Part shown: piece after piece, positions 18,051-40,616 of the stretch
Position numbering within the stretch: the stretch's first letter is position 1
Layout of the letters: each line of letters opens with the position of its first letter
IMG/VR virus record: IMGVR_UViG_3300014962_000011
Location: 1-52,220 of that record
Reading direction: 5' to 3' (one strand)
DNA: 52,220 bases
Source of the DNA: a virus
Program-made: the position numbers and the translations under genes
The notes under the pieces: model-generated
Told to the model about the DNA's origin: nothing
The model's database searches: none
Seen by the model: the letters and a program-made list of their open reading frames with translations, nothing else

Positions 18051-18079
18051 CAAATGTAATACTTTCCACGAAACGGAAA
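18051..18079 (-). promoter_or_regulatory. Late promoter with TTTCC-N7-GGAAA dyad
   Basis: On the minus strand the dyad (18063-18079) is followed after 5 bases by TACATTTG (revcomp of 18051-18058), an exact -7 element. The dyad occupies the place where a -33 element would be expected, so an activator may replace it. A GTCC half-site follows at 18093-18096. Confidence 0.65.
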
Positions 18080-18095
18080 AAATCTATTTTTTGGA

Positions 18096-19115
18096 CTAAA
18101 CGAAAGCGCTGCTGAACTCAGAAGTGAATATCCGGGCGAATGGGTTGTCGCCGGGGTTCGCAATAGCGTTTTGGGATTCAGATACCAGGGCGATGGTCGT
18201 GCTGGCAAAAATCAGTGGAGCAATTTCGCTATCCTTTATCTTCCAAAGGTCGGAAAGGCTCGTTTGGCTTTGCGGGTTAAATACGATATATGGAAAGTCG
18301 TCTATGGTCAATTTATCCGCCAATAGCGCCTCAGTTATCATCTGGAGCATGTAGTAAGGTATTCCAATAGAAACCTCGCCTACTTTGAGCGTAAATGTGC
18401 TTACCTGATCGGTTTTTATCTGCACTTGGCTATATGACTGTTTGACATACCCCACATTGATAACCTTCGGCACGAATACGCTGACCAATGCCTCGCATCG
18501 TTGGTAAAACACCGCAGAGTATGGGTCTGAGTTGAATGGAAAATCGTTGTACCAGCCGCCGATAATGATGTTTTTACGGGCTACGTTGCTATTATAAGTG
18601 AAGGTGAATAGCATTGTGTCCGGGTGGTCTGTGGCTATATTCAGTGGCTCACTCCAATAGCTCAAAGTATCTTCGCCAGTCATTTCATTATCACATCGTA
18701 TGTAGTAAAATTCGCCGTCTACAATGTCCGTAAACGCTGATGGTGTAAATGAAAATAGATAGCTATTTAGCGGGTATGAAGTGCCCGTGCTTACCGCCGT
18801 CCATGTGTTCCCGGCAAGTGACTGGCCGCCCTTAAAATACGGCGCTACATTCAGGTCTATGGTGGATATTTCCTGCTGGTATTTATCACACAGATAGAGC
18901 TTTGCAATGCTGCTGCCACCCTGCACATGAACCATTATCGTTATTGTGTCATTAAGCCCTATTTTCTGGTAGTATTGCTGCGCTGGCTGCCAGTCCTGTA
19001 TAGTTAGCCCATACACCGCCTGACCTAGTATTTGCAGGCCTTTCGGCACGTCTCTATCACGGCTTATCTTCACCGAATTTGATAGCGGGAATATAGTTAT
19101 CCTCTGCGCAGGCAT
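18096..19115 (-). CDS. Tail tip / baseplate protein (339 aa)
   Basis: Not matched to a named family. Beta-rich (repeated strands such as ITIMVHVQ and LFTFTYNSN), no signal peptide. It follows the large tail protein in gene order (with the plus-strand pair between), as expected for a distal tail component. Its own promoter region has two dyads (19152-19170, 19236-19250). Confidence 0.55.
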   Translation of the reverse strand: MPAQRITIFPLSNSVKISRDRDVPKGLQILGQAVYGLTIQDWQPAQQYYQKIGLNDTITIMVHVQGGSSIAKLYLCDKYQQEISTIDLNVAPYFKGGQSLAGNTWTAVSTGTSYPLNSYLFSFTPSAFTDIVDGEFYYIRCDNEMTGEDTLSYWSEPLNIATDHPDTMLFTFTYNSNVARKNIIIGGWYNDFPFNSDPYSAVFYQRCEALVSVFVPKVINVGYVKQSYSQVQIKTDQVSTFTLKVGEVSIGIPYYMLQMITEALLADKLTIDDFPYIVFNPQSQTSLSDLWKIKDSEIAPLIFASTTIALVSESQNAIANPGDNPFARIFTSEFSSAFV

Positions 19116-19136
19116 TTAGAAAAGGGTTTGGTCTCA

Positions 19137-19170
19137 CGAAGATAGGAATTGTTTTCCAAAAAATGGAAAA
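19137..19170 (-). promoter_or_regulatory. Dyad TTTTCC-N7-GGAAAA with TATCTTCG
   Basis: Dyad at 19152-19170, the most symmetrical of the set. The nearest -7-like element is TATCTTCG (revcomp 19137-19144), 9 bases from the TTCC arm rather than 5. It lies immediately after a terminator and in front of the gene starting at 19115. Confidence 0.5.
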
Positions 19171-19189
19171 AGGACGGTAGAAACCGCCC
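19165..19189 (-). terminator. Intrinsic terminator, minus strand
   Basis: GGGCGGT-TTCT-ACCGTCC followed by TTTTT on the minus strand. It would stop transcripts from the promoter at 19223 after about 50 nt, just in front of the next promoter. Confidence 0.65.
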
Positions 19190-19222
19190 TAACCTATAAA
19201 ACCTATCATGAGTCAATCGGTG

Positions 19223-19250
19223 CAAAGATACTAAATTCCGGAAAATGGAA
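19223..19250 (-). promoter_or_regulatory. Late-type promoter with TTCC-N7-GGAA dyad
   Basis: Dyad 19236-19250, then 5 bases, then TATCTTTG (revcomp 19223-19230), an exact -7 element. Same geometry as the promoter at 18051-18079. Its transcript meets the terminator at 19165-19189 unless that is overcome. Confidence 0.65.
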
Positions 19251-19312
19251 AAGCCCAGCAAGTGCTTTTGCTGGGCTTGATGTTAGTTAGAGGCTAACGG
19301 TTGTATTAGGAG
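19251..19312 (-). ncRNA. Candidate very short RNA with terminator
   Basis: A TACCTTTG -7 element (revcomp 19317-19324) starts a stretch of about 60 bases with a small stem (GTTAG/CTAAC) and ends with AAGCCCAGCA / TGCTGGGCTT (19251-19260 with 19269-19278) followed by TTTTCC. Promoter plus terminator without an open frame suggests a small RNA. The upstream -33 element is weak. Confidence 0.4.
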
Positions 19313-19349
19313 GATACAAAGGTATGTTATTTATTTCAATTGCAAACAT

Positions 19350-19645
19350 AGGAGGGTTACTCCCTTGCAACCCCTATAAATAGAGTCCGAAGGCTTCCGC
19401 TGTTTGAATAGACTTGGCTATTTGCTCACAGCTTCCTGCTCTGTCTTACCTGTCGCCTCCCATGCGAGTGTTGAAGTTGTTACGGGAACTTTTGCAAGTC
19501 GTTAGTTGCCCCCTCTAAAGCATTGCTAACACTGGTTACTTCAACAATTCTTTCTGTTGTGCCAACCGGCCTGTGAAGGCTCTAAACACACAGTTTCTTA
19601 AGATCAAAGCTAAACTTTCATTTTGCAAATGAAGCACCATTTGCG
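19350..19645 (-). ncRNA. Candidate structured RNA of about 300 nt
   Basis: A minus-strand promoter (TTTG, 20 bases, TATGTTTG; revcomp of 19652-19683) and a second -7 match TAGCTTTG (19605-19612) lead into about 250 bases without a convincing protein. The strand contains complementary segments such as GTTGAAG/CTTCAAC and GGGTT/AACCC (19354-19373). No known RNA family was recognised. Ends are approximate. Confidence 0.35.
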
Positions 19646-19651
19646 CGGAGT

Positions 19652-19683
19652 CAAACATACTTAAGACCGCTTTACAGCACAAA
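19652..19683 (-). promoter_or_regulatory. Minus-strand promoter with full consensus
   Basis: Reading the minus strand, TTTG, then 20 bases, then TATGTTTG, which agrees with the Bacteroidota consensus. It lies about 540 bases upstream of the nearest minus-strand gene start (19115). Confidence 0.55.
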
Positions 19684-19726
19684 TTTACCACATATACAGC
19701 GCGTGCGCGCGATAATATGCAAAAAG

Positions 19727-19735
19727 TTATCCACA
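19727..19735 (+). other. DnaA-box consensus sequence
   Basis: TTATCCACA matches the DnaA box exactly and is followed by an AT-rich stretch. A single 9-mer match can occur by chance in a window this size, so an origin is only a possibility. Confidence 0.25.
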
Positions 19736-19778
19736 ATTTATATAGCTACCGTAAATTAATTTTTGGCCCGGCATTTGC

Positions 19779-19786
19779 TATATTTA
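19779..19786 (+). promoter_or_regulatory. Putative promoter of the plus-strand moron pair
   Basis: TATATTTA is one base from the -7 consensus; TTTTTGG lies 12 bases upstream, which is short. The start codon is at 19800. This region separates the pair from the late operon, so it can be expressed independently, for example in the prophage. Confidence 0.4.
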
Positions 19787-19799
19787 CAAAAATCACCTT

Positions 19800-20099
19800 A
19801 TGAGCAACGACGGTAAAATTCAATTCGGCGTGATAATGTTAGTGGTAGGCATAATCATTGGCATATACGCCTTTTTCTTTTTCGATGTAAGTGTATCATC
19901 ATACTATTCTAGCGGCACGGCTAATATGGACTTACTGAATCGGAGGACTTGCTTAATGATAGCGGCTGCCGCTCTATTTATTAGCGGGGCTGTTATGAGT
20001 TCATCCACAAATAATGATAGGCTTTATTCTATCGATGTAAAAATAGATACCATAACTTCAATTTTGACAAAGATTATATCAAACAAAAAAGAAGATTAA
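19800..20099 (+). CDS. Two-span membrane protein, moron (99 aa)
   Basis: Hydrophobic spans at about 9-28 and 50-66, then a polar helical tail (DRLYSIDVKIDTITSILTKI). It is encoded against the surrounding tail genes, with a lipoprotein 2 bases downstream. Such inserted gene pairs in temperate phages are often expressed from the prophage and protect the lysogen; that role is inferred. Confidence 0.6.
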   Translation: MSNDGKIQFGVIMLVVGIIIGIYAFFFFDVSVSSYYSSGTANMDLLNRRTCLMIAAAALFISGAVMSSSTNNDRLYSIDVKIDTITSILTKIISNKKED

Positions 20100-20101
20100 C
20101 C

Positions 20102-20569
20102 ATGAAAAAATTTCTCCTTTTATTCGTAATCATCGCGGCTGTGAGCTGCAATAAGAAAGATAACAAGCGCGCAACTACGCTATCGCTCACCGCTGCTGCC
20201 AGTGATATGGGTTTGCTGTTTGAGCATAAGTACGCTATGGTATTGTACAGCGGAAGTGGCATAATGGATGCTGATAGCATTACATTTCACGCTGACAGCA
20301 CTATAACGGAAAAGCTATACAACGACAGCTCACATACTTACGTAACGACCCCCACGGTAGATGTTCACCCGTCCGCAAGGAATAATACGGCAATTAGAAT
20401 TTCCAGACCAGCTACATCATCCGGCTTTGGATTGCTAAACAACTACACAGGGGATACTGTTAATTTTGCTTATGTAGGATTTTATACAAGCGGGCCTATA
20501 TTTAACATTGGCAATAAGGCTACATTGGGCATTATGCTATCTAACAACAAATACGCGATACTTTACTAA
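20102..20569 (+). CDS. Lipoprotein, moron (155 aa)
   Basis: Signal peptide with lipobox AAVSC (Cys16), followed by NKKDNK, a charged stretch typical of exported Bacteroidota lipoproteins. The rest is beta-rich. It forms a unit with the membrane protein before it and converges with the tail gene ending at 20566 (4-base overlap). Candidate surface-exclusion factor. Confidence 0.65.
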   Translation: MKKFLLLFVIIAAVSCNKKDNKRATTLSLTAAASDMGLLFEHKYAMVLYSGSGIMDADSITFHADSTITEKLYNDSSHTYVTTPTVDVHPSARNNTAIRISRPATSSGFGLLNNYTGDTVNFAYVGFYTSGPIFNIGNKATLGIMLSNNKYAILY

Positions 20570-23169
20570 ACCACAGTATCCGGCGTTATCCATCCATAAA
20601 ACTCCGTAGCTGATCCGTCAGCAACCTGCACCGCTTTGTAGATAAAGAACCTGTATTCTGTTGTGGTGTAGCCTACTTCTTTCCATAAAAAGCGCACATA
20701 CCCTTTTGGGTCATTGCCAAACAGCTCATACATATTTACCGGGTATTTAGAGCGCACGCGGATAATGCTGTCACCAAATAATCTATCCGGCAAATCACCA
20801 ATGCGTATGTCTGAAAATTCAGTGTATGGTGTTGCGGATGCCCCTACATCTAGGTTGCTGGATATGCCAACAGGCGTAAAGGGCTGGTTATTTAGCTGAA
20901 TAATAGTGTTGTTCCTAAAGGTCAGGTATTCGTCATCCATATTGCTCAACACACTGCGAATAATAGGGCCATTGCGATAGATATTTCTGCATGGCGATAG
21001 CGGTATGTTTATAGCTGTATCTGGATAATAAAGGCCCGCAACGTATGGAGCGGTTGCCGCTGTCGGGTCTGTGCTCTGTGCGTTGCTGTATTTTTTTATT
21101 GCGTATGCAAAGCCGCCTATCGGATTGTTTTCGGGGTCATAAATCTGCACCAACTTGCCATTAACCATAGCTGGCAACTCAAAAGACTGTTCACTTTCCA
21201 TGTACAGTGCGACAACCTTGTCATTTGCTGATGGCTTGCCCGCGTCATATACCGCCGTCACATTCTGCGTCACCTGCTGCTGACGAATGAACTCAGTTTC
21301 ATACATGCCACATACAATGCCTGTTTCCTGCATATCCATAGTACCAGGTACTGCGACAGCAGGGGTGTCAAACTCTTCCTCTGTATTAAATTCGTCAACC
21401 CCGAAATTACTGTTGGTATCAGCTCGATTATAACCGGCTTTAAGTTGCGCTCCTATACCATCCGTCATTTGCTGTATCTCAAATTCTGTTACATCATAAC
21501 CCAAATCAAGTATCATAGTATTTGGGAAGAAGTAGCCGAAATTTTCAATCCTGAATGTATCGCCTTCTATGGCTCCGGCGCACCCTGCAACAGTTTTGCA
21601 AAAGTTGAAAAGCTCGTTAAATGATATAGCCATATAGCTACGCCCTTGCAAATTCTGCAAGGTGTATGAAGATGTAAGCAATATATTAAACGGTACTACA
21701 TCAGCAACCGGCGCAGCTTCATCGTTGAACAGGTATTCGCTAAGCCCGGTATATGGCGTTGCAACTGGCACGGGGAATCCCCAATCATCTGACCGGGTTG
21801 TTGCCAACATTGGGACTATCTTTTGCAATACCTGATAAAGCCTATATCCCATAAAAACAGACGGGGGAAATGAGGGGGCTTGGATTGGTGTGCCGCTTGA
21901 CCCGCTGTCGTAGTTTGACAGGAAAGAAAATTGTAGGTTTGAAAACTCTAAATTTAACTGCGTTCCCTGCGCAATACCTGCGTCGTCATCGAATATTAGC
22001 GCAAATACATAAACCTTATTATAGCTTAGTGTAGTTGTAATTGTTTCAGATATTGTGCCTCCGGGGGTAGATGCGCCGGTTAAATACCATTTATAAATAG
22101 TGGTATATGTGTAGTTGCTTCCAGACATTACGGGTTTATCGTCGGTGCCTATTTCAAAAAGTACAAATCCCAAAAAAGGGTTTGTAGACGGTGCGGCGCC
22201 GGTAATCTCCATTGTACCAGGTATAGTAGCCTGTACCTGCACGGACATTTCTATACTGCCAGAACCCGTTGGCAATATATTTTTTAAACTAAACCTGTTT
22301 GTTGTATATGGCTTACTGTTGTTGTCTCCATTAAAATCCCGCTCGTTAGCTCCCGGCTGTGATGGAACCGGCCCCGGCTTATCGCTTCCATTCGCTTGAT
22401 TGCCAGTTATTAAAAATGGGGTTAGAATTGTATTGCCGACATAAGTGGTACTGCCGTCTTTTTGCACTGGCGTATACGGCGACAAATATGGAATTGTGTG
22501 ATACCCGTCATCAGGCGCGTCAAAATGCTTCCCATGATTAAATCCAAGCAACTCACGCCCATTTATCTGCGCATAAACCAAAGTGTCATCTGGCGTTGCA
22601 CTACTAATAAACGTCGCATTATACAGCAGCTTTATCCCCTCATGCACGCCAAACTTTGCATCTGTAAGCCAATCATCCAAATCGCTGTCATACGTCCAAT
22701 AGGGTATTTTGAACTTGGTATTGCCCCTTGCCTGTATCTGCTGTATCAACTCACTATCGAGGGTTGATATTTCCAGAATTTGATTCATCTGGTTATCGAG
22801 GTAGGTACGGAAATCCAACAACGTTTGATACCATATGTCATACTCAAAAGTTGATTCGTTCCATATCCATATTTTCAGGTTGCCATATCCGCGTATGCCT
22901 GCCTGACGGCGTATATACTGAATGATGGCCCGAGCATCTTTGCTAAATTTAAACGCTCCATTTGAAGACTGCGAGCGAAATACGCCCAAGTATTCCGGGT
23001 GCCGGTTCCACTCAATGTTGATAGTTTGCCAGTCCTGCGGTAACGTAGATAAATATGTCTTGGTGGTAGTTGTGGTTACAGACCATGTGGCGGATTGTTG
23101 CAACGTAGCAACATAGTAGTTGCCGTCACGATCCTGCAGGGTCATTTCAAATTGACTATTATATGCCAT
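20566..23169 (-). CDS. Large tail protein, probable tail-tip/Tal-like (867 aa)
   Basis: It follows the tape measure by 5 bases, the usual place for distal tail or tail-associated proteins. The N-terminal part (FEMTLQDRDGNYYVATL) and long beta-rich body fit a baseplate hub or host-specificity protein. No catalytic motif was recognised. Product name rests on position and size. Confidence 0.65.
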   Translation of the reverse strand: MAYNSQFEMTLQDRDGNYYVATLQQSATWSVTTTTTKTYLSTLPQDWQTINIEWNRHPEYLGVFRSQSSNGAFKFSKDARAIIQYIRRQAGIRGYGNLKIWIWNESTFEYDIWYQTLLDFRTYLDNQMNQILEISTLDSELIQQIQARGNTKFKIPYWTYDSDLDDWLTDAKFGVHEGIKLLYNATFISSATPDDTLVYAQINGRELLGFNHGKHFDAPDDGYHTIPYLSPYTPVQKDGSTTYVGNTILTPFLITGNQANGSDKPGPVPSQPGANERDFNGDNNSKPYTTNRFSLKNILPTGSGSIEMSVQVQATIPGTMEITGAAPSTNPFLGFVLFEIGTDDKPVMSGSNYTYTTIYKWYLTGASTPGGTISETITTTLSYNKVYVFALIFDDDAGIAQGTQLNLEFSNLQFSFLSNYDSGSSGTPIQAPSFPPSVFMGYRLYQVLQKIVPMLATTRSDDWGFPVPVATPYTGLSEYLFNDEAAPVADVVPFNILLTSSYTLQNLQGRSYMAISFNELFNFCKTVAGCAGAIEGDTFRIENFGYFFPNTMILDLGYDVTEFEIQQMTDGIGAQLKAGYNRADTNSNFGVDEFNTEEEFDTPAVAVPGTMDMQETGIVCGMYETEFIRQQQVTQNVTAVYDAGKPSANDKVVALYMESEQSFELPAMVNGKLVQIYDPENNPIGGFAYAIKKYSNAQSTDPTAATAPYVAGLYYPDTAINIPLSPCRNIYRNGPIIRSVLSNMDDEYLTFRNNTIIQLNNQPFTPVGISSNLDVGASATPYTEFSDIRIGDLPDRLFGDSIIRVRSKYPVNMYELFGNDPKGYVRFLWKEVGYTTTEYRFFIYKAVQVADGSATEFYGWITPDTVV

Positions 23170-23174
23170 AGGGT

Positions 23175-26100
23175 TTATCTTTTAACTCTGAACTGTAAAT
23201 TTTGCTGCGTCCTTACTGCGTCTACATATGCCTGTGAGACGTTGGGTATCTGTGGCCTGCTGCCATACATAGCCCTTACCATATCGTCGCCAACATCTTC
23301 AAACTTGTTGCCTATATACTTTGTAAGTTCCTTCATGATGGCTCCGTCATTTACCGGGTTGACCATAGGCTGGGTAATGAACATACGGGCCGCCGCCGCC
23401 TGTAAAATGCGGGTTGTTTCCTCTGCTGTATTGATTTTAGTACCAATAGGCATTTTATAAATACCCCTCTTTTCGGCTATGGTCATGCTGCCATCTGGTG
23501 CGGTCATAAGCTCTGCACCTTTTTCGCCCGCGACAAAGTGCTCTGTTGTAGTTGTACCGCCTTTGGCAAATTCGGGCAGTGGAGCGGATGCCGCCGCCGC
23601 ATATTGTACCGCTCCCGTGGCCGCCAGTAACGCCGCAATAGGCACAGCAACAGGGTAAGGAAAATCAACGAACGCCTTTATGATGGCAACGGCTGTATTT
23701 GCTATGATAGAGCTTTCTGCCGCCTGCTTTTGGGCTTTAGCCGCCTTCAATGCCAGCGCATTAGATTTAGCCTGCAATTCGGCTTCTTTTGCCTGTGCCT
23801 GAGCCAATACCTGCTGCTTTTCATTTGCCTTATCAATGGCATAACCCGTAGTAGCATCAATAGCCCTTAACTTTTGGTCTGTGTCATTGCGTAGTGTTTC
23901 CTGTTCGCGCTGGATTTGATTTTGCTCCGACTGTATTCTCTGCTGTGTAGCCTGTGCCTCCGCTTGTATTACTTCCTGAATGAGATTTACCGCCAAATCT
24001 CGGATATGGCGCATGTCATCTTCCTTCTTTCGCCTTATTGCGTCGTCACTATTTGCAATGGCCAGCTCATATTCCTTTTGTTGGCGAATTAGGTCATCGT
24101 ACACCTGCTGGCTCAATGCTACTTGCTTATCAGCTTCCTCTTTGTAGTCTGGAGATAATGGCCCGGATGCATTTTCTTTTGCCTTTTGCAATGCCGCCGC
24201 CGCGCCCGGAATCTGCTGATTCACCCCGTTTAGTCCTATTTGCGCCTGATTCCTATTGTTGCGCTGGTCTTCTATGAATGTTGCATAATCCCTCGTTGCG
24301 GAATTTCCGCCGCCCGACACGATTGATATGAGGCGCTCCAAATGGCCTATATCAGCATTGGTAGACAATGACCGTGTAGCTTCTATTACTTTTGCCGATA
24401 TCTTATTAAAATAATCCTCGGCTAGTTTTAATCTCTGCTTGTATGCATCCCGGTCAATTTGCTTCAATTTTTCGTCCTGCTGGCGCTGCGCCTCAATGAT
24501 CTGGTTGCTATCAGTTATGGTCGCTGCCATTCCCCGGAACTGCGCCTCTAAGGCTTCCTTTTTTGCTTTGGTTTGCAAGTCTATTGCCGCCGCCGATTGT
24601 TCATAGCTAGGAATGCCAAATGCAGCGTTGCTACTAGCTAAATCCGCAGCGCCTTGCAATAGTCCTACGCCGGTCTTTTGATTCCTGGAGTATTCATCTC
24701 GCGAAAATTCATATTCTGCGTTCTTGCGCTCCTGTTCGCCTATTGCCTTGAGCAGATTGAGTAATTTGTCGTAAGCCTGAATATTCTTATCAGTATAGCC
24801 TAGATTGTTTTCGTCTGTCACAGACAGCCTGTATATCTCTCGATTCTTACTGATTTCATCCGTTAAAGCCTTGTATTTCGCCCGGGTGTCTGCAACTATC
24901 TTGTCAACACTTGCTACATCCTCCTTCTCAGTCTCTTGGCGTAGTTGCTCCCGAGTAGCCGAAAGTTCCTTTTGCAGCTCTTTTTCTTTCTGATTCATTA
25001 GCCTGTTGCGATTTTCTACAAAGGCTACTATGGCATTCTGTGTGGCGGCTTCCGTTTCTGTTATCTGCTTTTCTATTGCCTTGCCGTCTGCAACATTCTG
25101 ATTTCTGATGTCATCTATTATCTTTTCTAAGTTCGTGCCAGCCTTAACTGCATCATTAAATTGCTTTTCTATGCCCTTAATTACCGATTCAGGTAGGTTG
25201 CCTTGCATTCGTAGGTATTTTGGCAAATTGGCCCTATCCCCCTCCGCATACGCAAGCGCAGAGCCAATATCCTGACTGATATCCAGCTTCTTTTTAAGTA
25301 GCTTTATTTCTGCCTCCCGGCGCTCGTTTCCTGCGTCCAATACCTCCTTTTCGTGCTCATAAACTGCGTCGTTTACAACTCCAATAGATTTTATCAATTC
25401 CTCTTTACGCTTCAGCCCATCTACCGTATTTGCTTCTATGGCTTTCAGTATTTCTACATTACTTATCGCAGCAAGATTCAGCGTTTTTTGTAACTCTTGA
25501 AGTTTTGTAACTTGGTCAATAACACTTTCAAATGCGGAGGAAAGATTTTTTGCCGCCTCAGCAGTTTTGTTTATACCTTCCTCTGTTTTAAATAGGTCTT
25601 TACCAAATATTTCAAAGGCGGCGTAAGCCAATACAAAAATGTTGGTAAAGTCAAAAAATGACGTTGCAAGTATCTTTAATGCTTTGCCGGTGCTCCCAAC
25701 CTCCGCCCTAAGTATCTTGAATTGGTCAAACAGCCCAGCGAAGTTGTTGGATAATGCCGATAGCCCGGTCTGTATCCCATTTGCAAATGCGGGCGCTTCA
25801 CGTATGAGCTGCGATAGGGCCAATGTTGCATTTTGGTACTGTCCTACTTTCCGCTGATGCCTGCCAACAGATTCCTCAATCTTCACTAGCTGGGTGTTCA
25901 TATCCCTAGCCTTAATAATGAATTTTTGAGCCTCTGCGCTGTCTACACCATACGCAGCCGCCAGCCGCATTGCCTCTTTGGCTGTATCGTTGTAGTTCTT
26001 CTTTAAAACCTCATATTCATCGTTTAGCTTACGCGCTTTTTCCTGTTCGCGCTGCAATAGCTTATCATTAAGATCCTTTTGCTTTTGCAGTTTAATGAGC

Positions 26101-27138: not shown

Positions 27139-27149
27139 AGTGATAGTTT

Positions 27150-27593: not shown

Positions 27594-27595
27594 AT

Positions 27596-31376: not shown

Positions 31377-31382
31377 TGTTGA

Positions 31383-32495
31383 TTAGGGTTTAAGAGCGAA
31401 GAAATAAATAGGTGTCTCATCGGCTGTCGACAGGTACTGCGTCACATAGGCGATGTAAAAACCTATCTGCCATTGTGTAACACTATCCTGTGTGTAACCA
31501 TGTCCGCCGCCGGTGGTTGTGTCTGCCTGCGTTCTCCATCCGTGAACCATGTACTCCATGCCGGGCACAGTATCGTCAGGAACCATGCCGTAACCACCTG
31601 CGTAGTCGTCGTAGTTACCTGACCCGTCGATGTACAGCTTAGGCATCCACGGAATGAATGCGAAGCTGTTTGATGGCATACAAAGAGCAACACCCTGGTC
31701 GTATCCGCCCACTATTGGAACATCACTATCGCCGAGGATAATATCCTCCCATATGTTACCCATATAGCCGCCTGTCTGCGGCGGTACGGGTGTTGCCTTT
31801 AGCTGGTAAGCGAGGTTGGTCGCGTTCTGCGTAGCCTGCGCCTGCTGGAACTCATACCCGCTTGGGCCTGCATACAGCTTTTGGTCTGCAAAAACATCAT
31901 ACTTAGAGTATCCGTACTTGTTCCAGCGCAGTGTGCTGGTCATAGCAGACCACGGAAGTGTCGCGTTGTTGCCAGATATTTCGTAAGTCTTTGTTATTGG
32001 GTCGAGGGTAGACATTGCAGCGTTTGTGCCGCGTGAGTTTACGCCGTTACGGCTTGCATAAAGCTGCTGGGTGAGCCATGTGCGCAGGCGTTCGCGTAGG
32101 TTACGCTGAGCCTGTGAAACTTCATTGCGGAACAGTTCGCCTTCGCTGAAAACGTTGTCCATCGCTTCAGTTTCGTTGAAGTAAAACTCTTCCGTGAAGG
32201 CTATCCACGTCAGTGTCTGTTGAGAAGAAGTACCGCCGATACCGGTATTGAACGCGGTCATCGCTGTACCATTTGTTGAAGGCTTACGATTTTTAACGTA
32301 GCCATAAACCGGCCTGTTTACCGATTGTTTGATCGCTGAAATGTTCTTAGCGTTCATCAGGAAGTCTTGGTTTTCAAGACCTACGTTGAGCACCTGCGTC
32401 TCAAGTTCGCGCAGTTCCGCTTTGTTGAACTCATCGCGCACAGGGCTTTGATAGGCTGCTAAGAGCGAATCGTAGTAGTTACTACTAGCTGGCAT
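31383..32495 (-). CDS. Major capsid protein (370 aa)
   Basis: Size, position after a scaffold-like gene and a dedicated promoter fit a major capsid protein. The N-terminus (AELRELETQVLNVGLENQDF) is helical and the middle has the mixed alpha/beta character of HK97-type folds. A leader of about 160 nt with a GGCGG/CCGCC stem precedes it. No direct sequence signature for HK97 was identified, so the call is moderately sure. Confidence 0.65.
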   Translation of the reverse strand: MPASSNYYDSLLAAYQSPVRDEFNKAELRELETQVLNVGLENQDFLMNAKNISAIKQSVNRPVYGYVKNRKPSTNGTAMTAFNTGIGGTSSQQTLTWIAFTEEFYFNETEAMDNVFSEGELFRNEVSQAQRNLRERLRTWLTQQLYASRNGVNSRGTNAAMSTLDPITKTYEISGNNATLPWSAMTSTLRWNKYGYSKYDVFADQKLYAGPSGYEFQQAQATQNATNLAYQLKATPVPPQTGGYMGNIWEDIILGDSDVPIVGGYDQGVALCMPSNSFAFIPWMPKLYIDGSGNYDDYAGGYGMVPDDTVPGMEYMVHGWRTQADTTTGGGHGYTQDSVTQWQIGFYIAYVTQYLSTADETPIYFFALKP

Positions 32496-32660
32496 TGTGT
32501 AAGAAATTGATAAGGTTAAAGAATTTGTTGTATTTCGCTAGACGGGCCTACAATGCCGCGCCTATGTAGCATATAGGGAACAACCCTAGTTCTTTTGTGG
32601 GCGGCAACAATCCGCCGGTGGGAGAAGTAACTGGAAGGATGCTAATTGCCAATTACGATG

Positions 32661-32712
32661 TAAAGATATTCCATTTTCTGGAATAACCAAATAATTCGTC
32701 CGAAAAATGGAA
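32661..32712 (-). promoter_or_regulatory. Capsid promoter with two TTCC-N7-GGAA dyads
   Basis: Dyads at 32669-32683 and 32698-32712 (second with one arm GTCC), 29 bases centre to centre. TATCTTTA (revcomp 32661-32668) abuts the first dyad. It lies upstream of the capsid gene, with a leader of about 155 nt that contains a CGGCGG/CCGCC hairpin (near 32608-32625). Confidence 0.6.
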
Positions 32713-32730
32713 AATATTTTTAGGCGAGAC

Positions 32731-33066: not shown

Positions 33067-33082
33067 TATTTCATTTTAAATG

Positions 33083-33271
33083 CTATTTCTTGAGGTTTGA
33101 CCTATTTATATAAACCGATATTGCCATGAAAGAAGCCCAAGCGGGGAGGCAAAAGATTATCACCCACGGATTGTGATACACAATGGCGGATTGGGTGGCA
33201 TACACGGTGAGCGCAGCAGGCCCAGCGGCGGCCAATGAATAATGCAGATATTTGCGTAGTCGTGGTGTCAT
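33083..33271 (-). CDS. Two-span membrane protein (62 aa)
   Basis: Hydrophobic spans near 12-28 and 34-54, basic ends. A holin-like size and layout, but it lies among head genes. Overlaps the upstream gene by 4 bases. Confidence 0.5.
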   Translation of the reverse strand: MTPRLRKYLHYSLAAAGPAALTVYATQSAIVYHNPWVIIFCLPAWASFMAISVYINRSNLKK

Positions 33272-33483
33272 AGCTTATTAATTTCTTCAGGTGGAGTGAA
33301 TGCGAATTTTACGTCTGGCATTGGCTTTCCATAGTTAAACATCGGCAGGTCTTCAATATTTGCGTCGCGCCAAAAAGCCGCGCTCTCATAATCCTCAACT
33401 TCGACAGACCACTTAATCATTAATGCTTTCATTTCCTGAAAGTATGCATTCCATTCTTCTGGTGTTGTTGTGCATTGTGTCAT
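33268..33483 (-). CDS. Hypothetical late protein (71 aa)
   Basis: Not recognised. Acidic, Trp-containing (EEWNAYFQEMKALMIKW). The ATG at 33483 is preferred; one at 33504 would overlap the upstream gene by 7 bases. Confidence 0.5.
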   Translation of the reverse strand: MTQCTTTPEEWNAYFQEMKALMIKWSVEVEDYESAAFWRDANIEDLPMFNYGKPMPDVKFAFTPPEEINKL

Positions 33484-33497
33484 AACGAGAGTGAGGG

Positions 33498-33761
33498 TTA
33501 CCAACTAAATGTAAATGAATAAATGTTGCCAAAATTGTAATTGATGCCAGGCTTAGTATGTAGTTTCAATGTGCGTCTGCCGCTACGATCAAACATAATA
33601 CATGTTTCCTCTCCAAAATAGTTCTTTATCCTCTCTACATCAAAGTCGAATTTCACATCTGCCGGTATCTCATAAATGTAGTGTTCAGGATGCGATACAT
33701 AGCTCTTAAAATATGGCTTTAAGAACTCAATATCTACGTTTTCCTGCAATACATTTTCCAT
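33498..33761 (-). CDS. Hypothetical late protein (87 aa)
   Basis: Not recognised. Acidic alpha/beta protein (YIYEIPADVKFDFDVERI). The ATG at 33761 is chosen; a start at 33776 is possible. It follows the tRNA-like sequence by 28 bases. Confidence 0.5.
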   Translation of the reverse strand: MENVLQENVDIEFLKPYFKSYVSHPEHYIYEIPADVKFDFDVERIKNYFGEETCIMFDRSGRRTLKLHTKPGINYNFGNIYSFTFSW

Positions 33762-33789
33762 ACCCCAAATATACAAAAAAACACCCGAT

Positions 33790-33859
33790 TGGCCCCAGCA
33801 GGATTCGAACCTGTGACCTCCCGGTTATCCCGGTTGCTCTACCGCTGAGCTATGGGTTC
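33790..33859 (-). tRNA. Degenerate tRNA-like gene, Ile(GAT)-like, short anticodon loop
   Basis: D arm (GCTC AGCGGTA GAGC) and T arm (GG TTCGAAT CC) are clear. The acceptor stem has mismatches at positions 2-71 and 3-70. The anticodon arm reads CCGG-GATAA-CCGG: four pairs and a five-base loop, without U33. Inserting CT would restore CTGATAA, the usual tRNA-Ile(GAT) loop. Probably not a decoding tRNA as it stands; a pseudogene or a tRNA mimic. Confidence 0.5.
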
Positions 33860-33971
33860 ATCTACAAAACTCCGAACATTCGCAACAGAGGTGTAAGCAG
33901 ATTTATTACACTTATGAAATTGCTTTGATTGTGCCACGAATGCCGTCTTTACCGGGCGTTTTTGTTAGATA

Positions 33972-33979
33972 CAAATATA
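33972..33979 (-). promoter_or_regulatory. Putative -7 element upstream of tRNA-like gene
   Basis: TATATTTG on the minus strand, an exact TAnnTTTG match with weak -33. It lies about 110 bases before the tRNA-like sequence. The remaining bases between 33762 and 34031 hold no other visible gene. Confidence 0.4.
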
Positions 33980-34031
33980 CAAAAAGGCAGCCTAAAAAGA
34001 CCGCCTGTTCACCATAAAACATGAAAAAGAT

Positions 34032-34238
34032 TTAGTCCATTTGATGCACGTTATCCATGCTGTCGCGCGTCCATATAGCCGATTGGTAGTTGCCTACGTT
34101 CGGGCCTGTGCTGTGCGGGATTGAGTGCTCTATCGCAATAAGCTGTTCGCGAATATCTATCATTCGCGCTTTTGCAGAAAGTCTGGTATCGAACTGCAAA
34201 TCTTTATACTCATCCATCAATTCCTGATATGTTGCCAT
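34032..34238 (-). CDS. Hypothetical late protein between tRNAs (68 aa)
   Basis: Not recognised. Helical N-terminal half (YQELMDEYKDLQFDTRL). Starts 13 bases after the tRNA-Met 3' end. Confidence 0.5.
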   Translation of the reverse strand: MATYQELMDEYKDLQFDTRLSAKARMIDIREQLIAIEHSIPHSTGPNVGNYQSAIWTRDSMDNVHQMD

Positions 34239-34251
34239 AAAACCTATTTTG

Positions 34252-34323
34252 TAGCGGGAGGCGGGATCGAACCGCCGACCTATGGATTATGAGTCCATTG
34301 CGCTACCCCTGCGCTATCCCGCG
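34252..34323 (-). tRNA. tRNA-Met (CAT)
   Basis: A complete cloverleaf on the minus strand: acceptor CGCGGGA with TCCCGCT (first pair mismatched), D arm GCGC/GCGC, anticodon stem ATGGA/TCCAT with loop CTCATAA, T arm GGCGG/CCGCC. The 3' CCA is not encoded. The anticodon stem lacks the three G-C pairs of initiator tRNA, so it is elongator Met, or Ile2 if the C34 is modified to lysidine. Confidence 0.85.
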
Positions 34324-34328
34324 ATGTG

Positions 34329-34643
34329 TTAATATTCTATTTGTACGGTTTTGTCAATGCTGTCTGTGATTCGACTCCATCTAGGTATCAAGACGGTTTC
34401 GCGCGACCCACATCTAGCCATATACTTAAAAAAGGGACTGGGTGCGCAAGTATGGCGTATCATCCAAACTTTCATTTTTGTTCTCTCACTATAAAATCCA
34501 CCGCCGGTAGGATATTTCATTTCTTCCAATATTAAAGCTCCGCCCCTTTTGGTTAATACCTTGCCTTCGCAAAATAAAAACTCAGTTGTAGTGGGGAATA
34601 AAATCACTCCGCAGACAAACAAGAAAATTCTAATTGCTTTCAT
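34329..34643 (-). CDS. Exported small protein (104 aa)
   Basis: N-terminal hydrophobic segment (IRIFLFVCGVILFP) like a signal peptide or anchor; the mature part has several Cys. The ATG at 34643 is chosen over one at 34676. It ends 5 bases before tRNA-Met, so the tRNA is probably cut from the same transcript. Confidence 0.5.
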   Translation of the reverse strand: MKAIRIFLFVCGVILFPTTTEFLFCEGKVLTKRGGALILEEMKYPTGGGFYSERTKMKVWMIRHTCAPSPFFKYMARCGSRETVLIPRWSRITDSIDKTVQIEY

Positions 34644-34718
34644 AAAAATCCATTTAATCGTTAAATAAAACCCCACCCTGAGAACAAGGCGAGGTACTTA
34701 TCACCCCATGAAAAAAAC

Positions 34719-35591
34719 CTATGCTATCGTTTCGGCCCGTAGCCTGTTGAATAACTCCTGACGCTTGCGCGCCCAGCCTTCCGTCTTCCCCTTCTTTTCG
34801 ATAGGAAACTGCTTGTCAACCTCCTTTATAATGTCTTCGGTTGACTTGTATTTGCTCACCTTTGGCAATGCAGGGTTACGTACGCGCGGATCGTGTGTTA
34901 CCTTTGGGTCTTTGGGGTCTGTCGCTGGTGCAGCCTTTACCTTGTGCCACGACTTATATTTGTCCTTGCCGCGCTCCTGCTCCCATGCCTGTTGATACGG
35001 CAAGGTGTTTGCTTTTTCGTCTGCAACAAATTTTCCGGTAGACCTATCAAACAAACCCTCAACATCTCCATCCATCTTTATTTCGAAAGTGCGCTGAAGC
35101 CGGGCGATCCACTCATCTTCATCTAGCGCATCGGTCATGCCGTCAAAGAATAGCTTGCGGTACTTCTTTTCCGCTTTTAGCGCCTCTAGCTGTTGCTGGG
35201 CCGTTTGTATCTCTGTATTCTTTGAATCCACGGTCTTTTGCAGATCGGCGAACTTTGTTTCCCATTCCGCCGGTGTTACGCCCGCTTCTTTGACAGCCTT
35301 AGCCTTCATAGCCTCAACTATCTTCTTTGGGTCTTTTGCAGCCGCTCCGGTAAGGCCCAGCTCATACTCTGTATTCATGTTTCTGCACCATATTTCCTGC
35401 GCGTCCTTATCCTTGACGTAGCCCTTACGGATATTAGCCTCCAGCTCTGTATATCCCGCATCGTCATAGACGCGCAACGGCGGCAGCGTAATATCTACCT
35501 CGTCAGTGGCATCAAGCATTTCGGTGATTTGCTCGTCATTGTACTTTAGTGCTTTGAGCGCCTTTATCTGCGCTTCTCTTGAAAGTGGCAT
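34719..35591 (-). CDS. Probable scaffolding protein (290 aa)
   Basis: Charged and helical, with a long coiled coil near 105-150 (TVDSKNTEIQTAQQQLEALK) and a basic C-terminal segment. This is the usual make-up of phage scaffolding proteins, which guide capsid assembly and are then lost. It lies between portal and capsid genes, as expected. Confidence 0.6.
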   Translation of the reverse strand: MPLSREAQIKALKALKYNDEQITEMLDATDEVDITLPPLRVYDDAGYTELEANIRKGYVKDKDAQEIWCRNMNTEYELGLTGAAAKDPKKIVEAMKAKAVKEAGVTPAEWETKFADLQKTVDSKNTEIQTAQQQLEALKAEKKYRKLFFDGMTDALDEDEWIARLQRTFEIKMDGDVEGLFDRSTGKFVADEKANTLPYQQAWEQERGKDKYKSWHKVKAAPATDPKDPKVTHDPRVRNPALPKVSKYKSTEDIIKEVDKQFPIEKKGKTEGWARKRQELFNRLRAETIA

Positions 35592-35621
35592 AAGTGTTTG
35601 TTTTTATGTTATGGATGATGG

Positions 35622-36059
35622 TTACGCTTCTTTGGCAGTCTCAAATATAGGTTTGCCGTCCTTTTCGCCCACTATCTTCTTGTCAATGGAAATGTTCAGG
35701 CCGATAACCTTATATGTGCCGTCCGGATTGGTTACGCGCTCTTCTTTCCCGGTTTCCTCGTCAATCTCCGTCATAATAATGTCATTGGCCTTGTAGGTTT
35801 CGCCGCTCTTTACTTTGCCGGCCGGGAACCACCAAAGAACCATAGGATAGCCAAGCTCTGACGGATTTCGGTGATCCTGCGACCTGTTCAGCGCATCCAG
35901 TGTTGTTTGCATGTTTGGCATATTGCCGCGCTGAAGTTCCATTATCTGCACTGATTTAGTGACGGGGGCGCGCCGGCCAGGCTCCCGGTTAACTTTCACC
36001 AGGTACTTGTCGAAGCATTGTACATCCTTCGCATCGGGTGTGTTTGGTTTTCTGTTCAT
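35622..36059 (-). CDS. Hypothetical head-region protein (145 aa)
   Basis: Not recognised. Soluble, beta-rich C-terminal half (VIGLNISIDKKIVGEKDG). Between portal and scaffold, a place often used for head maturation or accessory proteins. Confidence 0.5.
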   Translation of the reverse strand: MNRKPNTPDAKDVQCFDKYLVKVNREPGRRAPVTKSVQIMELQRGNMPNMQTTLDALNRSQDHRNPSELGYPMVLWWFPAGKVKSGETYKANDIIMTEIDEETGKEERVTNPDGTYKVIGLNISIDKKIVGEKDGKPIFETAKEA

Positions 36060-36078
36060 AATTGTTTGTTTTGAAGAT

Positions 36079-38022
36079 TTATGATACTAATTGCATTTCC
36101 TGTGTTCCTACTTTTTGAAGGTCGGCGGTCGTATATCCAAATACTCCATCCATCCCACCACCGGACATTGTAACATTTCGGTCAACTATATCTGTGACCT
36201 TGAATATGCGCCCGTTATGGTCTGATTTCTGCTCCTTGCCGTGTATCACCCTCACTTCGTCGCCAATGTTTATAATTTCGCCGGTCGCAGTCATAAGTAA
36301 TGCGTCGTATTTTTTCATCTCAACATACCGGGTGGTTACATATTGGCGAAGTTTCTCACGTAGAATAACCGCTCCGCCTTCATCTGGCACACTGGCTATG
36401 TCGTAATCAGTAAGCGTGCTTGTCCACTCATCAAAGTACTTTTTCTCCATGCGCTCAGTGAGCGATAATTGCGGATCCGTCCAAATGGTTTCTACCGGTT
36501 CATGGACGAACGGCTCTACCTGCCTGAGTAGTTCCGCCTTACGATATAATTCCGGGTTGCCGTCGAACTTATTTTCGTTGTACTCTATCAATAGCGTGTC
36601 GAGTGTGTACATAGGCGCTTTGCCCTGCACCGCCTTCAGGTATCTTTCCCAAGTGGCATCAGGGCTTTCTATCATAAACCGGTCTCCGCATATAATTGCG
36701 CTACCTTGAAACTGATCGCGGTATTTATACCACGCGCAGGCATCTATGATAAACCGCTGTATCGACACCTTCCACTTTCCAAACAGGCGCAGGCGCTCAT
36801 GTTGTGGCTGTGTATTTAGCTGCGCCTCATAAGCCGTCTTTGAAGTATCGCCGCCACCGCCGCCCGAAGACTTCTGCCCGGCTATTAACGTCCTGTTTTG
36901 ACCCGCAGATTCTGTCACACCCCATGTCGTCAAGTAGAAGTACTGCTCCAGCGTCATGTTATTATCGTACATGAACTGCAAGGCTGCTATATCTGATTCT
37001 ATTCGGCCTAGCGGGGGGTGTGGTATGCTCTTATTCTCGTCATTTCGGTAATCTACTATTGCCACGTCAGCGGTGCGCAAGAAAGGCAGATAGCCTTTGC
37101 CGTGACACTCGGGGCAGTCCTGACCGTCTAACAATGCGTGTCCGTCGCATGTGGGGCACTTAAATTTCTGCATCCACTCTTTAGGGAATACATTTCGCCA
37201 ATATGCCCATGAATACAACGCCCTGTCTGTAAGCATGGCATCCAGCAGATTCAGCGATACAGATAATGGGCTTTCAAAATAGTTGTCTACACCCCATATG
37301 TCCGATATAATCATGCAAGGAACGTAACCAAATTCGTTAGGCACTTCACTTACCACGGTCATATTCTCATATGTAGTCCCGATGCTGCCTCGTGATCCGA
37401 TAGATACGATCCTATCTGCCACATCGTCTATCACCCTGTACACCTTGTTTCTTGGTGGTGTGTCTGCCGGGATAATACCAGCAGATATATACGCGCCTCT
37501 TTCCTCCTTTCCTATCTCAAATACTACGTATTCGAGCGCGCGCCCATTGTTCAGGTAGTCATAAACCTCATCTATACACCTAACCCTCGGGTATGGCTCA
37601 TCGTCTGAATTTATCTCTATTTGAATAAGTCCGTTCGGATCGTAGTCGTAGCGCATCTGCACTATATTCCTAATCCATTCGTCGAGTGGCAGCCCTTCGG
37701 TTATAGACTGTAAGAATATGCTAAAATCAGTTTGCAGGTCTTCGGGCAGGTTGATTTGCGTGAGACCGCCCTTTGCCGTGTATATCTTGTTTCGCGGGGC
37801 CATTACACGGTGAATAGTATCCCTATTAGACCGCATGAACTTAACGAGGGTGTCTTTTGTCCCCTCGCGCATGAACTCTTCTATATTTTCGACGTAATCC
37901 TCAACACCTTCACCGGTAAAGAACATGCGCAGCTTTTGATATTGCGCTTGCGCGGCCTTTATAAAGTCTATGTTTGGCCTGTTGGTTATAATATCCAGTA
38001 TCTCTTTATAGTCGAGGGTCAT
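36079..38022 (-). CDS. Portal protein with zinc-ribbon insertion (647 aa)
   Basis: Size and position after the terminase fit the portal, the ring through which DNA enters the head. Near residues 295-320 it has CPTCDGHALLDGQDCPECHG, a DnaJ-like two-CxxC zinc ribbon, which is also seen in portal-like proteins of other Bacteroidota phages. The long helical C-terminal half is consistent. Homology to a named portal family was not tested. Confidence 0.6.
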   Translation of the reverse strand: MTLDYKEILDIITNRPNIDFIKAAQAQYQKLRMFFTGEGVEDYVENIEEFMREGTKDTLVKFMRSNRDTIHRVMAPRNKIYTAKGGLTQINLPEDLQTDFSIFLQSITEGLPLDEWIRNIVQMRYDYDPNGLIQIEINSDDEPYPRVRCIDEVYDYLNNGRALEYVVFEIGKEERGAYISAGIIPADTPPRNKVYRVIDDVADRIVSIGSRGSIGTTYENMTVVSEVPNEFGYVPCMIISDIWGVDNYFESPLSVSLNLLDAMLTDRALYSWAYWRNVFPKEWMQKFKCPTCDGHALLDGQDCPECHGKGYLPFLRTADVAIVDYRNDENKSIPHPPLGRIESDIAALQFMYDNNMTLEQYFYLTTWGVTESAGQNRTLIAGQKSSGGGGGDTSKTAYEAQLNTQPQHERLRLFGKWKVSIQRFIIDACAWYKYRDQFQGSAIICGDRFMIESPDATWERYLKAVQGKAPMYTLDTLLIEYNENKFDGNPELYRKAELLRQVEPFVHEPVETIWTDPQLSLTERMEKKYFDEWTSTLTDYDIASVPDEGGAVILREKLRQYVTTRYVEMKKYDALLMTATGEIINIGDEVRVIHGKEQKSDHNGRIFKVTDIVDRNVTMSGGGMDGVFGYTTADLQKVGTQEMQLVS

Positions 38023-38040
38023 TATAGTAAGTGTTTGTTG

Positions 38041-38580
38041 TTACTGAATTATCTGGCTTACGGCTTTGCTGGTACGTTTTACCACGGCCTCAATCTCATT
38101 CTTCTGCTTAAACGTTGCATTGTTCCAAAAATCTTCAATAACCGCCATTTTGATAGGCGCTGAAATTTCCTGTAACTGCCGCTCTATTTCAAATGTGGCT
38201 TTGATCGTACCTATGGGGTCAAATTTTATTTTATTCAGTGCTGTTGCTCGAATCGTGCGGATAGCAAGCATTGACACCCCGGTATGCAGTTCGTGGAGCG
38301 GTTTTTGATTAAACTCAATAAATTCATTTATATTAAGGTTTAGCTCGAAGAAAGACATTTGATCTGAAATGCTCTTAAACGCACCATTAATTAGCCAAAG
38401 CTCTGCACTTTCCGGCAGCCTTATTTTTTCCACCTCTCTATCAAATATCGCCCTACAATCCGGGTGGTGAAAGATGGCGTTTAGCTTTTCTGGTGACATT
38501 ACGCCGGTAGCTGTCTTAGCTATGCCGGTTGTGTTGGCTGCTGTAATTGTGTTTTCTGCTGGTGTCATTGCGATTTCCAT
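38041..38580 (-). CDS. Hypothetical packaging-region protein (179 aa)
   Basis: Not recognised. The N-terminus is Thr/Ala-rich and low in complexity (ENTITAANTTGIAKTATG); the rest is helical. It stands between the large terminase and the portal. Confidence 0.5.
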   Translation of the reverse strand: MEIAMTPAENTITAANTTGIAKTATGVMSPEKLNAIFHHPDCRAIFDREVEKIRLPESAELWLINGAFKSISDQMSFFELNLNINEFIEFNQKPLHELHTGVSMLAIRTIRATALNKIKFDPIGTIKATFEIERQLQEISAPIKMAVIEDFWNNATFKQKNEIEAVVKRTSKAVSQIIQ

Positions 38581-38591
38581 ATGGGTGTGTT

Positions 38592-39995
38592 TTATCTGCG
38601 TAAATATGTGTTATAACCAAATCTTTGCCTTTGCTGTTGTGGGCCGCGTATTATGGTGCAGTCTGCTTCTTGCTTTATCTCGAAGTACATCATCATAATG
38701 AGCATATCCAGATAGTCGGGCGAACGCCCTAGTAATTCTTTCATTAACTCCTTTTTGACAATGCGCTTCTTTGTTTCATCTTTATCAACACTCTCGGCCT
38801 TCAATACGCCAACTTCTTCTATTATCCGTTCTTTCTGCTCTGTGGTGCATATCACCTTTATCCTTCGCTCATTTATCGCACTGGCAAGCTCATAGGCGCA
38901 CTCTGCTTTTATGTTGGCATATTCTGCCTTATTGATTGCAGATGCGCCGCCGTGAAACTCTTTTATTCCAGTCAGGTAACTACCTTCGCCCTTGCTGTCA
39001 GTACCACCTAAGAAGTTACCCAGACCATCACTATCGGCAACCGTTTGACTGCGCGGCACGGCTTCATTTGTCATCGTAGCCTGTAAGTCGCGCACAATGG
39101 ATTTGCCTGTACTTTTTGGCTGATCTATTGGTATTCTCACCACCATGCCGTCACGAACCCCGACTATGAACCTATCCCGGCCCTGCATCGCCAAATCGGC
39201 GCTTATGTACTTCTTGCCCGTCGGCTTCACATGCTCATTGGTGAACATGTCGCAGATAGCATCGTAGTCACATAGTACTGTGGGGTCGTCGTCGTATTCC
39301 CAGTTGCCGAACAAAAGGCGCTCTTTCTGGTTGCGCGATAATGTGCGCATCAGGTTTTCGAGGTATCCATCGGGAAGGCATTTGTTATCCTGCGGTAAGG
39401 CCTGAACAAAACGCTTCCACGGCTCCAGATTCTTATCCTTATGCTTGCGGTAGTATTCGCGGTACAGGTAATTCTTTGACGGGTTACAGGTCTGCAATAG
39501 CTTACCTTTTAGCTTGTACACATCGTTCTTCCACCTGCCTATGCTTGCCCCCAGGTTGTTGACAGCGTCTTCATCAAACTCTCCCGATTCCTCACACCAA
39601 CCGCGCGTCATTTGCATCGAGCCAAAACGCATATAAAGCGGATCGCTCGGCATGAACTCAGCAGCCAGCAGGTAAACAACAGATTTATTGTGCAGCACGA
39701 AGCAATTATCTTGCCCATTGTACTTATACATGCTCTGCTTGATACCCCATTTCTCGAATACCTCATACACTGACGGTATCGTAAACTTACGCAGGTCTGA
39801 CAGCGTAGTACGGGCAATGAAATAGTGCGTACCCGGATAGATAAACGCATCACCAAATATCAAAGAACATCCTAAAAATGATTTACCACTACCCTTGCTG
39901 CCACCATATGCTATATGTGAGACTTCGTCATTAAGCCAATGCCTGCACACTTCTTTTTGCTTGTCGTTGCCTTGCGTATTAAAGACCAGCTCCAT
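38592..39995 (-). CDS. terL: Terminase large subunit
   Basis: A 467-aa protein. ATPase domain: Walker A GGSKGSGKS (31-39) and a Walker B region RGWCEESGEF (131-140). Nuclease domain: Asp267 (SADLAMQGRD) and Asp321/323 (VADSDGLG), the RNase H-fold acidic residues. It cuts concatemers and pumps DNA into the head through the portal. It starts 1 base after the small subunit stop. Full length and intact. Confidence 0.92.
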   Translation of the reverse strand: MELVFNTQGNDKQKEVCRHWLNDEVSHIAYGGSKGSGKSFLGCSLIFGDAFIYPGTHYFIARTTLSDLRKFTIPSVYEVFEKWGIKQSMYKYNGQDNCFVLHNKSVVYLLAAEFMPSDPLYMRFGSMQMTRGWCEESGEFDEDAVNNLGASIGRWKNDVYKLKGKLLQTCNPSKNYLYREYYRKHKDKNLEPWKRFVQALPQDNKCLPDGYLENLMRTLSRNQKERLLFGNWEYDDDPTVLCDYDAICDMFTNEHVKPTGKKYISADLAMQGRDRFIVGVRDGMVVRIPIDQPKSTGKSIVRDLQATMTNEAVPRSQTVADSDGLGNFLGGTDSKGEGSYLTGIKEFHGGASAINKAEYANIKAECAYELASAINERRIKVICTTEQKERIIEEVGVLKAESVDKDETKKRIVKKELMKELLGRSPDYLDMLIMMMYFEIKQEADCTIIRGPQQQRQRFGYNTYLRR

Positions 39996-39996
39996 A

Positions 39997-40428
39997 CTAT
40001 TCTATTCGCATGCCTGTAACGGCAACATTCAATTCGCCCTCGTGCTTTATGTCCAGCTTATCGCCATACTTTTTAGGTGCCAGCTTTGACATAAGCCACT
40101 TACGAGCCTCTACGCGAAGTTTTGACCTGTTGGTTATCTCTTTATTCTCCTGCTCATAGGATTCCTCGCCCCTAACAATGGTCATCAAGTCATTACTCCC
40201 ATCGTCAGCAATATCGAGAATTTCATCGGCCATCAAATCCATCTGGTTTTCTTTCGCGCGCGTGTATCTGTCGCAGAGTTCTTTATCTTCTTTCAACCAA
40301 CGATAGAATGTAGCCCTATCTGGCATACCCTCCATGCTGCAAATAGACTTCAGCCCGAGAGTTGTAGTTTCTATCAGTTCGCATATTTGCTCAGCTTTTT
40401 CCTTGTTGTATTCGGTATTGGCTGCCAT
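39997..40428 (-). CDS. terS: Terminase small subunit
   Basis: A 143-aa protein. The N-terminal helix-turn-helix (TTTLGLKSICSMEG, then DRATFYRWLKED) and the C-terminal RKWLMSKLAPKKYGDK segment are typical of small terminases of this type. It recognises phage DNA and recruits the large subunit. First gene of the late operon. Confidence 0.88.
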   Translation of the reverse strand: MAANTEYNKEKAEQICELIETTTLGLKSICSMEGMPDRATFYRWLKEDKELCDRYTRAKENQMDLMADEILDIADDGSNDLMTIVRGEESYEQENKEITNRSKLRVEARKWLMSKLAPKKYGDKLDIKHEGELNVAVTGMRIE

Positions 40429-40533
40429 AACAAATCAGTTAATTAAAAATGCCCACATAGACATGAAGGGCGTGAGTTGTGAATCGGGTTATAAGGGGCT
40501 GCGTCTGGTGCAACAATGTTGCATTTGACAGTA

Positions 40534-40573
40534 CAATATTATGTAGGATATTTGTAATTTCCAAAATTCGGAA
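40534..40573 (-). promoter_or_regulatory. Terminase-operon promoter region with TTTCC-N7-GGAA dyad
   Basis: Dyad at 40558-40573 on the leader, with a GGAA half-site at 40589-40592, 19 bases on, as at 18 kb. The nearest -7-like sequence is TAATATTG (revcomp 40534-40541), one mismatch, 17 bases from the dyad, so the spacing differs from the other late promoters. Confidence 0.45.
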
Positions 40574-40616
40574 TAAAATCTTTAAAATGGAATATTTGCC
40601 ATAATTTGGACAAAAC

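Follow-up and report, generated by a model that had tools for sequence, protein, structure and literature searches.

An inverted repeat at the late promoters of a temperate Bacteroidota phage, candidate site of a late-gene regulator

Temperate phages usually control their late genes by means of an activator or an antiterminator. In systems of the P2 Ogr and Mu C type, one phage protein binds dyads located at several late promoters. Lambdoid CI and Cro operators are tandem dyads of 15-17 bp placed over core promoter elements, and their specificity varies among related phages. Open-literature searches found no described late-gene control or late promoter system for the temperate phages of the Bacteroidota, one of the major phyla of gut and soil bacteria. 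In phage GIL01, the small phage protein gp6 is an activator acting on a dyad at -43.5 of the late promoter (PMC6182141).

The DNA analysed here (hereafter the window) is the virus record IMGVR_UViG_3300014962_000011, 52,220 bases long, and belongs to a temperate phage of Bacteroidota bacteria. It resembles GIL01 (PMC6182141) in being temperate, in having a late-promoter palindrome that overlaps the -35 region and, putatively, in the binding of this palindrome by a small DNA-binding protein of the phage. The gp6 system differs by its single promoter, its LexA homologue and its Bacillus host, whereas in the window a 15-bp TTCC-N7-GGAA dyad is found at about five promoters of the Bacteroidota type and at several distances. 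Late dyads at multiple promoters are shared with P2 Ogr and Mu C, but the site sequences differ, and scans of window proteins against Pfam or PHROGs found no member of the Ogr/C-type activator family. Tandem dyads over promoters are also a feature of the CI/Cro operators; in the window, however, they lie at late promoters and the early operator is a separate sequence.

From the sequence comparisons described below we infer, with a probability of roughly one in two, that the dyads are bound by a dimeric regulator, encoded by the phage, which would control all the late units together and would most likely activate them. The set of late-promoter sites, together with the equivalents in relatives, offers a direct starting point for identifying the regulator and for recognising late transcription units in sequence data. 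Moreover, if the site controls induction, it would bear on how such prophages stay silent.

Gene layout and dyads of the window

Early and replication genes are on the plus strand, an integrase gene is also present, and the late genes run on the minus strand from the terminase small subunit gene (terS, 40428) down to 12605 (Table 1). The capsid protein is 37% identical to the annotated major capsid protein of phage Pan5, and a small helix-turn-helix gene faces the gene of the CI-like repressor. Besides the integrase (40969-42111), a second tyrosine-recombinase gene is found in the early operon (7405-8316). Two plus-strand genes (19800-20569), one of them lipoprotein-like, lie within the minus-strand late region and are possibly lysogenic (moron) genes.

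All six dyads of the original prediction were found at their places, every one with a spacer of 7 bases; their arms, 11 bp apart centre to centre, form an inverted repeat with a spacing of one helical turn. According to the gene calls made for this analysis, the exact motif occurs five times in 5,003 bp of intergenic DNA and once in about 47.2 kb of coding DNA (Fisher p = 4e-5), while a first-order model of intergenic DNA gives an expectation of 0.07 intergenic copies. In none of 1000 simulations did any dyad with at least two G/C per arm and a spacer of 3-12 reach five. The dyads had been described as exclusively intergenic, which is true of these five exact copies but not of a further exact match at 18241-18255, within the ORF 18096-19115, with poor flanks and a score of 10.2 bits. 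The other intergenic gaps of the window contain no exact dyad. Counts that tolerate one mismatch show no enrichment over the whole window (17 sites against 18 expected); it is the exact copies that are concentrated between genes.

The dyads are very probably non-accidental: they are enriched and associated with promoters. A chance or compositional artefact devoid of function is hardly credible; it would agree with the flat one-mismatch count and with a scan of all viral contigs for the dyad followed after 5 bp by TAnnTTTG, where the 109 matches are about what chance is estimated to give, but it has against it the exact intergenic count, the independent coincidence with promoters and a tandem pair at the capsid promoter of a related phage locus, L020. 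Of the viral-contig matches examined, only two were intergenic, neither clearly late.

Six sites of the window and two of L020 were combined into a matrix, which revealed a strong additional site, 40597-40611, missed by the original prediction; none of 40 simulated windows had any site scoring as high. At 16 bits or more, seven places were found in 1.51 Mb of other phage loci and seven in the 52-kb window, six of the latter having served to build the matrix. The terS promoter may therefore hold three sites 19 bp apart. The middle one (40578) owes its support to its spacing, about two scores like its own are expected by chance per 52 kb, and weak neighbours of this kind could be chance.

Table 1. 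Coordinates of the dyads, predicted promoters, hairpins and genes of the window, with the dyads of two Sphingobacterium prophages
Feature	Position	Strand	Remarks
Dyad at terS promoter	40559..40573	-	right arm contains the -33 TTTG
Weak dyad-like site	40578..40592	-	10.4 bits; 19 bp from the 40559 dyad
Third tandem site, terS promoter (candidate)	40597..40611	-	18.2 bits; GTCC-N7-GGCA on the minus strand; outside the matrix training set
Capsid dyad, one arm GTCC	32698..32712	-	6 bp upstream of the capsid promoter -33
Capsid dyad	32669..32683	-	fills the -33/-7 spacer; 24.2 bits
Dyad	19236..19250	-	5 bp upstream of perfect TATCTTTG (19230-19223)
Dyad	19154..19168	-	9 bp upstream of TATCTTCG (19144-19137), promoter of gene 18096-19115
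Dyad	18064..18078	-	5 bp upstream of perfect TACATTTG (18058-18051), promoter of 17168-18025
Weak dyad-like site	18082..18096	-	9.8 bits; 18 bp upstream of the 18064 dyad
Predicted terS promoter	40534..40565	-	TTTG-N20-TAATATTG
Predicted major capsid promoter	32661..32691	-	TTTG-N19-TATCTTTA; -33 and -7 conserved in six relatives
Terminator-like hairpin	19171..19190	-	between the 19236 promoter and the 19154 dyad
Terminator-like hairpin	19251..19278	-	ends directly before the 19236 dyad
Different dyad TTAGAAAATACTTTCTAA (TTAGAAA-N4-TTTCTAA type)	43045..43062		spacer of the early cro-side promoter 43037-43067
S24-type CI-like repressor	42324..43019	-	S24 family
Terminase small subunit (terS)	39997..40428	-	phrog_1482, 1.5e-41; first gene past the 40559 promoter
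Major capsid protein	31383..32495	-	phrog_7231; first gene past the 32669/32698 sites
Gene after the 19154/19236 sites	18096..19115	-	without family match; presumed structural, from its place
Gene downstream of the 18064 site	17168..18025	-	without family match; presumed structural, from its place
GCTA-N7-TAGC dyads	L027 9488, 13734; L047 7074, 11502		terS and protease promoters

Late promoters and placement of the dyads

A promoter scan (TTTG-N18-21-TAnnTTTG with at most one mismatch), run without regard to the dyads, predicted minus-strand promoters at 40565, 32691, 19252 and 18082. Each is on a dyad, and four of the five exact intergenic dyads coincide with such independently predicted Bacteroidota promoters. 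In fact, the terS, capsid, 19252 and 18082 promoters fit the primary-sigma Bacteroidota type with no more than one mismatch, whereas that at 19154 does not, and every predicted late unit starts with at least one dyad. A gap of 5 bases from the dyad to a perfect TAnnTTTG, also part of the original prediction, is correct at 18064 and 19236, where the -33 element is TTTT; a perfect -33 and a perfect -7 occur together in no late promoter of the window. TAnnTTTG has been placed at -12 to -5, and mapped Flavobacterium promoters show little conservation of the -33 element (PMC6847099), so that a missing TTTG is weak evidence for an activator.

The dyads are centred near -20 and -49 at the capsid promoter, -25 at 18064 and 19236, -29 at 19154 and -37 at terS, with the 40597 site further upstream. 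Their position is thus variable, some being in the spacer between -33 and -7, some over the -33 and one upstream of it, at 0, 5, 5, 9, 17 and 29 bp from the -7 element; no window site is downstream of any -7.

If the regulator is an activator, it would be made from the early operon and would bind, as a dimer, one or more of the 15-bp sites that overlap the -33 region or lie shortly before it, the tandem copies being spaced by 17-19 or 29 bp. It could then help the host polymerase carrying the primary Bacteroidota sigma factor to start at the late promoters, each of which falls short of the full consensus. Activation is favoured because a constant place upstream of an intact -33 is seen in three phage groups, because the tandem copies run upstream, and because the late promoters are imperfect and the usual logic of temperate phages points the same way. 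Against it count the sites 32669, 18064, 19236 and 19154, which are in, or overlap, the -33/-7 spacer, the classical place for a repressor, and among which is the best-scoring site of the window; the varying distances to the -7 element count against it too.

A serious possibility, though short of an even chance, is that the dyads serve as operators for a repressor which the phage encodes in addition to CI and which would keep near-consensus late promoters shut, in the lysogen or early in infection, by covering their -33/-7 region. At all five promoters the dyads either occupy the spacer or reach over the -33 region, and the sites 18064, 19236 and 32669 suit repression equally well; moreover, the phage's own early promoter carries another dyad in just such a spacer. 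A repressor agrees less well with the lack of sites downstream of a -7 element, with dyads of the relatives L020, L021 and L054 that are wholly upstream of an intact -33, with tandem copies that extend upstream, and with the activator or antiterminator habit of temperate phages.

The two terminator-like hairpins at 19171-19350 alternate with minus-strand promoters predicted at 19346 and 19252, and two transcripts of about 50-70 nt between tail genes are thus predicted; they have no Rfam match.

The early control region and the candidate proteins

That the dyads mark a site for a regulator of late genes is well supported by their enrichment, their position at late units, the core promoters, the L020 group and the replacement dyads of L021 and L054. 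The accompanying contrast, early promoters with TTTG and no dyad, was wrong: the early promoter at 43037, TTTG-N19-TAATTTTG, has TTTG and, within its spacer, a different dyad (TTAGAAA-N4-TTTCTAA), a probable CI/Cro operator. In the CI control region GAAAATACTTTCTA is present twice, at 42996-43009 and within the spacer of the early promoter, whereas TTCC-N7-GGAA is absent from the CI/cro control region. Since that region carries another repeat, CI is unlikely to be the protein that binds the late dyads. A matrix site near the start of the CI gene (42984) would suit the S24/CI-like repressor as binder, but it scores a weak 13.2 bits, 0.55 matches of at least 13 bits being expected by chance per window; overall, operators of CI are quite improbable. 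A search for CI homologues returned one 39% relative, without a TTCC dyad.

None of the small DNA-binding proteins proposed as the regulator (11032, 11703 and 43406) could be linked to the dyad. Among 50,697 phage records, 11703 and 43406 had no match and 11032 had three marginal ones only; the protein at 43089 also had no homologue among phage records. Folds predicted from single sequences show a winged-helix-like order of elements for 11703 (pLDDT 72) and a helix-turn-helix-like arrangement for 43406 (pLDDT 78), neither with a significant structural match; with moderate confidence, the former looks like a winged-helix and the latter like a helix-turn-helix protein.

Dyads of related phages and of host genomes

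The relatives are mostly fragments. The L020 group, whose TerL and capsid proteins are respectively 69% and 29% identical to those of the window, shares the motif: in L020 and its near relatives the capsid gene is preceded by two exact copies at a distance of 17 bp from each other. Seven aligned capsid promoters (the window and six relatives) keep TTTG-N19/21-TAnnTTT(A/G), and in four of these phages (the window, with its 32698 site, L020, L021 and L054) a dyad, different in sequence between phages, ends 6-9 bp upstream of the capsid TTTG; no such dyad was seen at the capsid promoter of L023, L053 and L055. The closer relatives L021 and L054 have TTAG-N6-CTAA, 6-9 bp upstream of TTTG, at both their capsid and terS promoters (the near copy at the L054 capsid promoter has one mismatch). 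A class I/II activator of the gp6 kind would be expected to bind at a constant distance, which the 6-9 bp at these promoters would suit; other window sites are in the spacer. The exact motif was not found at the syntenic terS and capsid promoters of the closest capsid/portal relatives (L021, L023, L053-L055 and L281), a kind of absence that the original prediction had named as counting against it; the L020 group does have the motif, and L021 and L054 have other dyads instead. The L021 sites 2345/2362, considered as terS-syntenic, were rejected because some 390 bp separate them from terS and they stand at what may be a different promoter.

In the Sphingobacterium prophages L027 and L047, GCTA-N7-TAGC overlaps or abuts the -7 element at the terS and protease promoters, an arrangement that speaks for a repressor. 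A screen that covered 131 loci besides the window placed the window first, with TTCC-N7-GGAA at four promoter regions distant from one another, and L027 next; only these two had one dyad (arms with at least two G/C) at three or more promoter regions per contig, as against 0/100 shuffles. A position that is kept while the sequence changes favours a phage-specific dimeric late regulator. It is a tentative and rather doubtful extension of this view that temperate Bacteroidota phages share one layout, in which a dyad would be kept at a set place of the terS and capsid promoters, its sequence and the specificity of the regulator changing from phage to phage (TTCC-N7-GGAA, TTAG-N6-CTAA, GCTA-N7-TAGC), and would be recognised by small late regulators of a family not yet described.

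A host regulator as the binding protein is unlikely. In its favour, the motif is common to the window and the L020 group, yet between the window and the G001/G002 fragments no non-structural gene in common, and hence no candidate for a common regulator, could be recognised; G001, which represents L020, is only 29 kb long, however, so that such a regulator may be encoded beyond its ends. Across 247 genomes of the phylum, the dyad precedes TAnnTTTG by 4-6 bp about 54 times, only modestly above the roughly 37 of a reversed control, and a toxin-antitoxin operator accounts for part of this difference. Furthermore, no host regulon emerged from the matches sampled in about 247-254 Bacteroidota genomes, and other phages have other dyads at the same place.

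In three Bacteroidota genomes (L272, L273 and L277), HigB-like toxin genes have promoters with GTTCCC-N5-GGGAAC a few bp upstream of TATATTTG, the setting expected for an autorepressor, and in this respect they favour a repressor for the window dyads as well. Both kinds of site present TTCC-N7-GGAA a few bp before TAnnTTTG; the HigB-type operators differ by their arms (GTTCCC/GGGAAC) and by the host HigB-like gene downstream, and the window yielded no recognisable relative of HigA.

A repressor-like layout is also present in L096 (4200-6390), where three promoters that precede TerL have GGTAT-N8-ATACC in or beside their -33/-7 spacer. The noncoding stretch between the integrase gene and terS of the window (40618-40770) is 68% identical over 155 bases to L281 788-928, likewise upstream of terS, and its folding is no better than that of shuffles; the L281 portal is 72% identical to that of the window. 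A tRNA-Met (cat) gene is found in the late region of the window (34251-34323) and of L023 (9665-9739), in both cases between the packaging genes and the capsid gene, and a second tRNA-like gene of the window (33790-33859) was detected by Rfam only.
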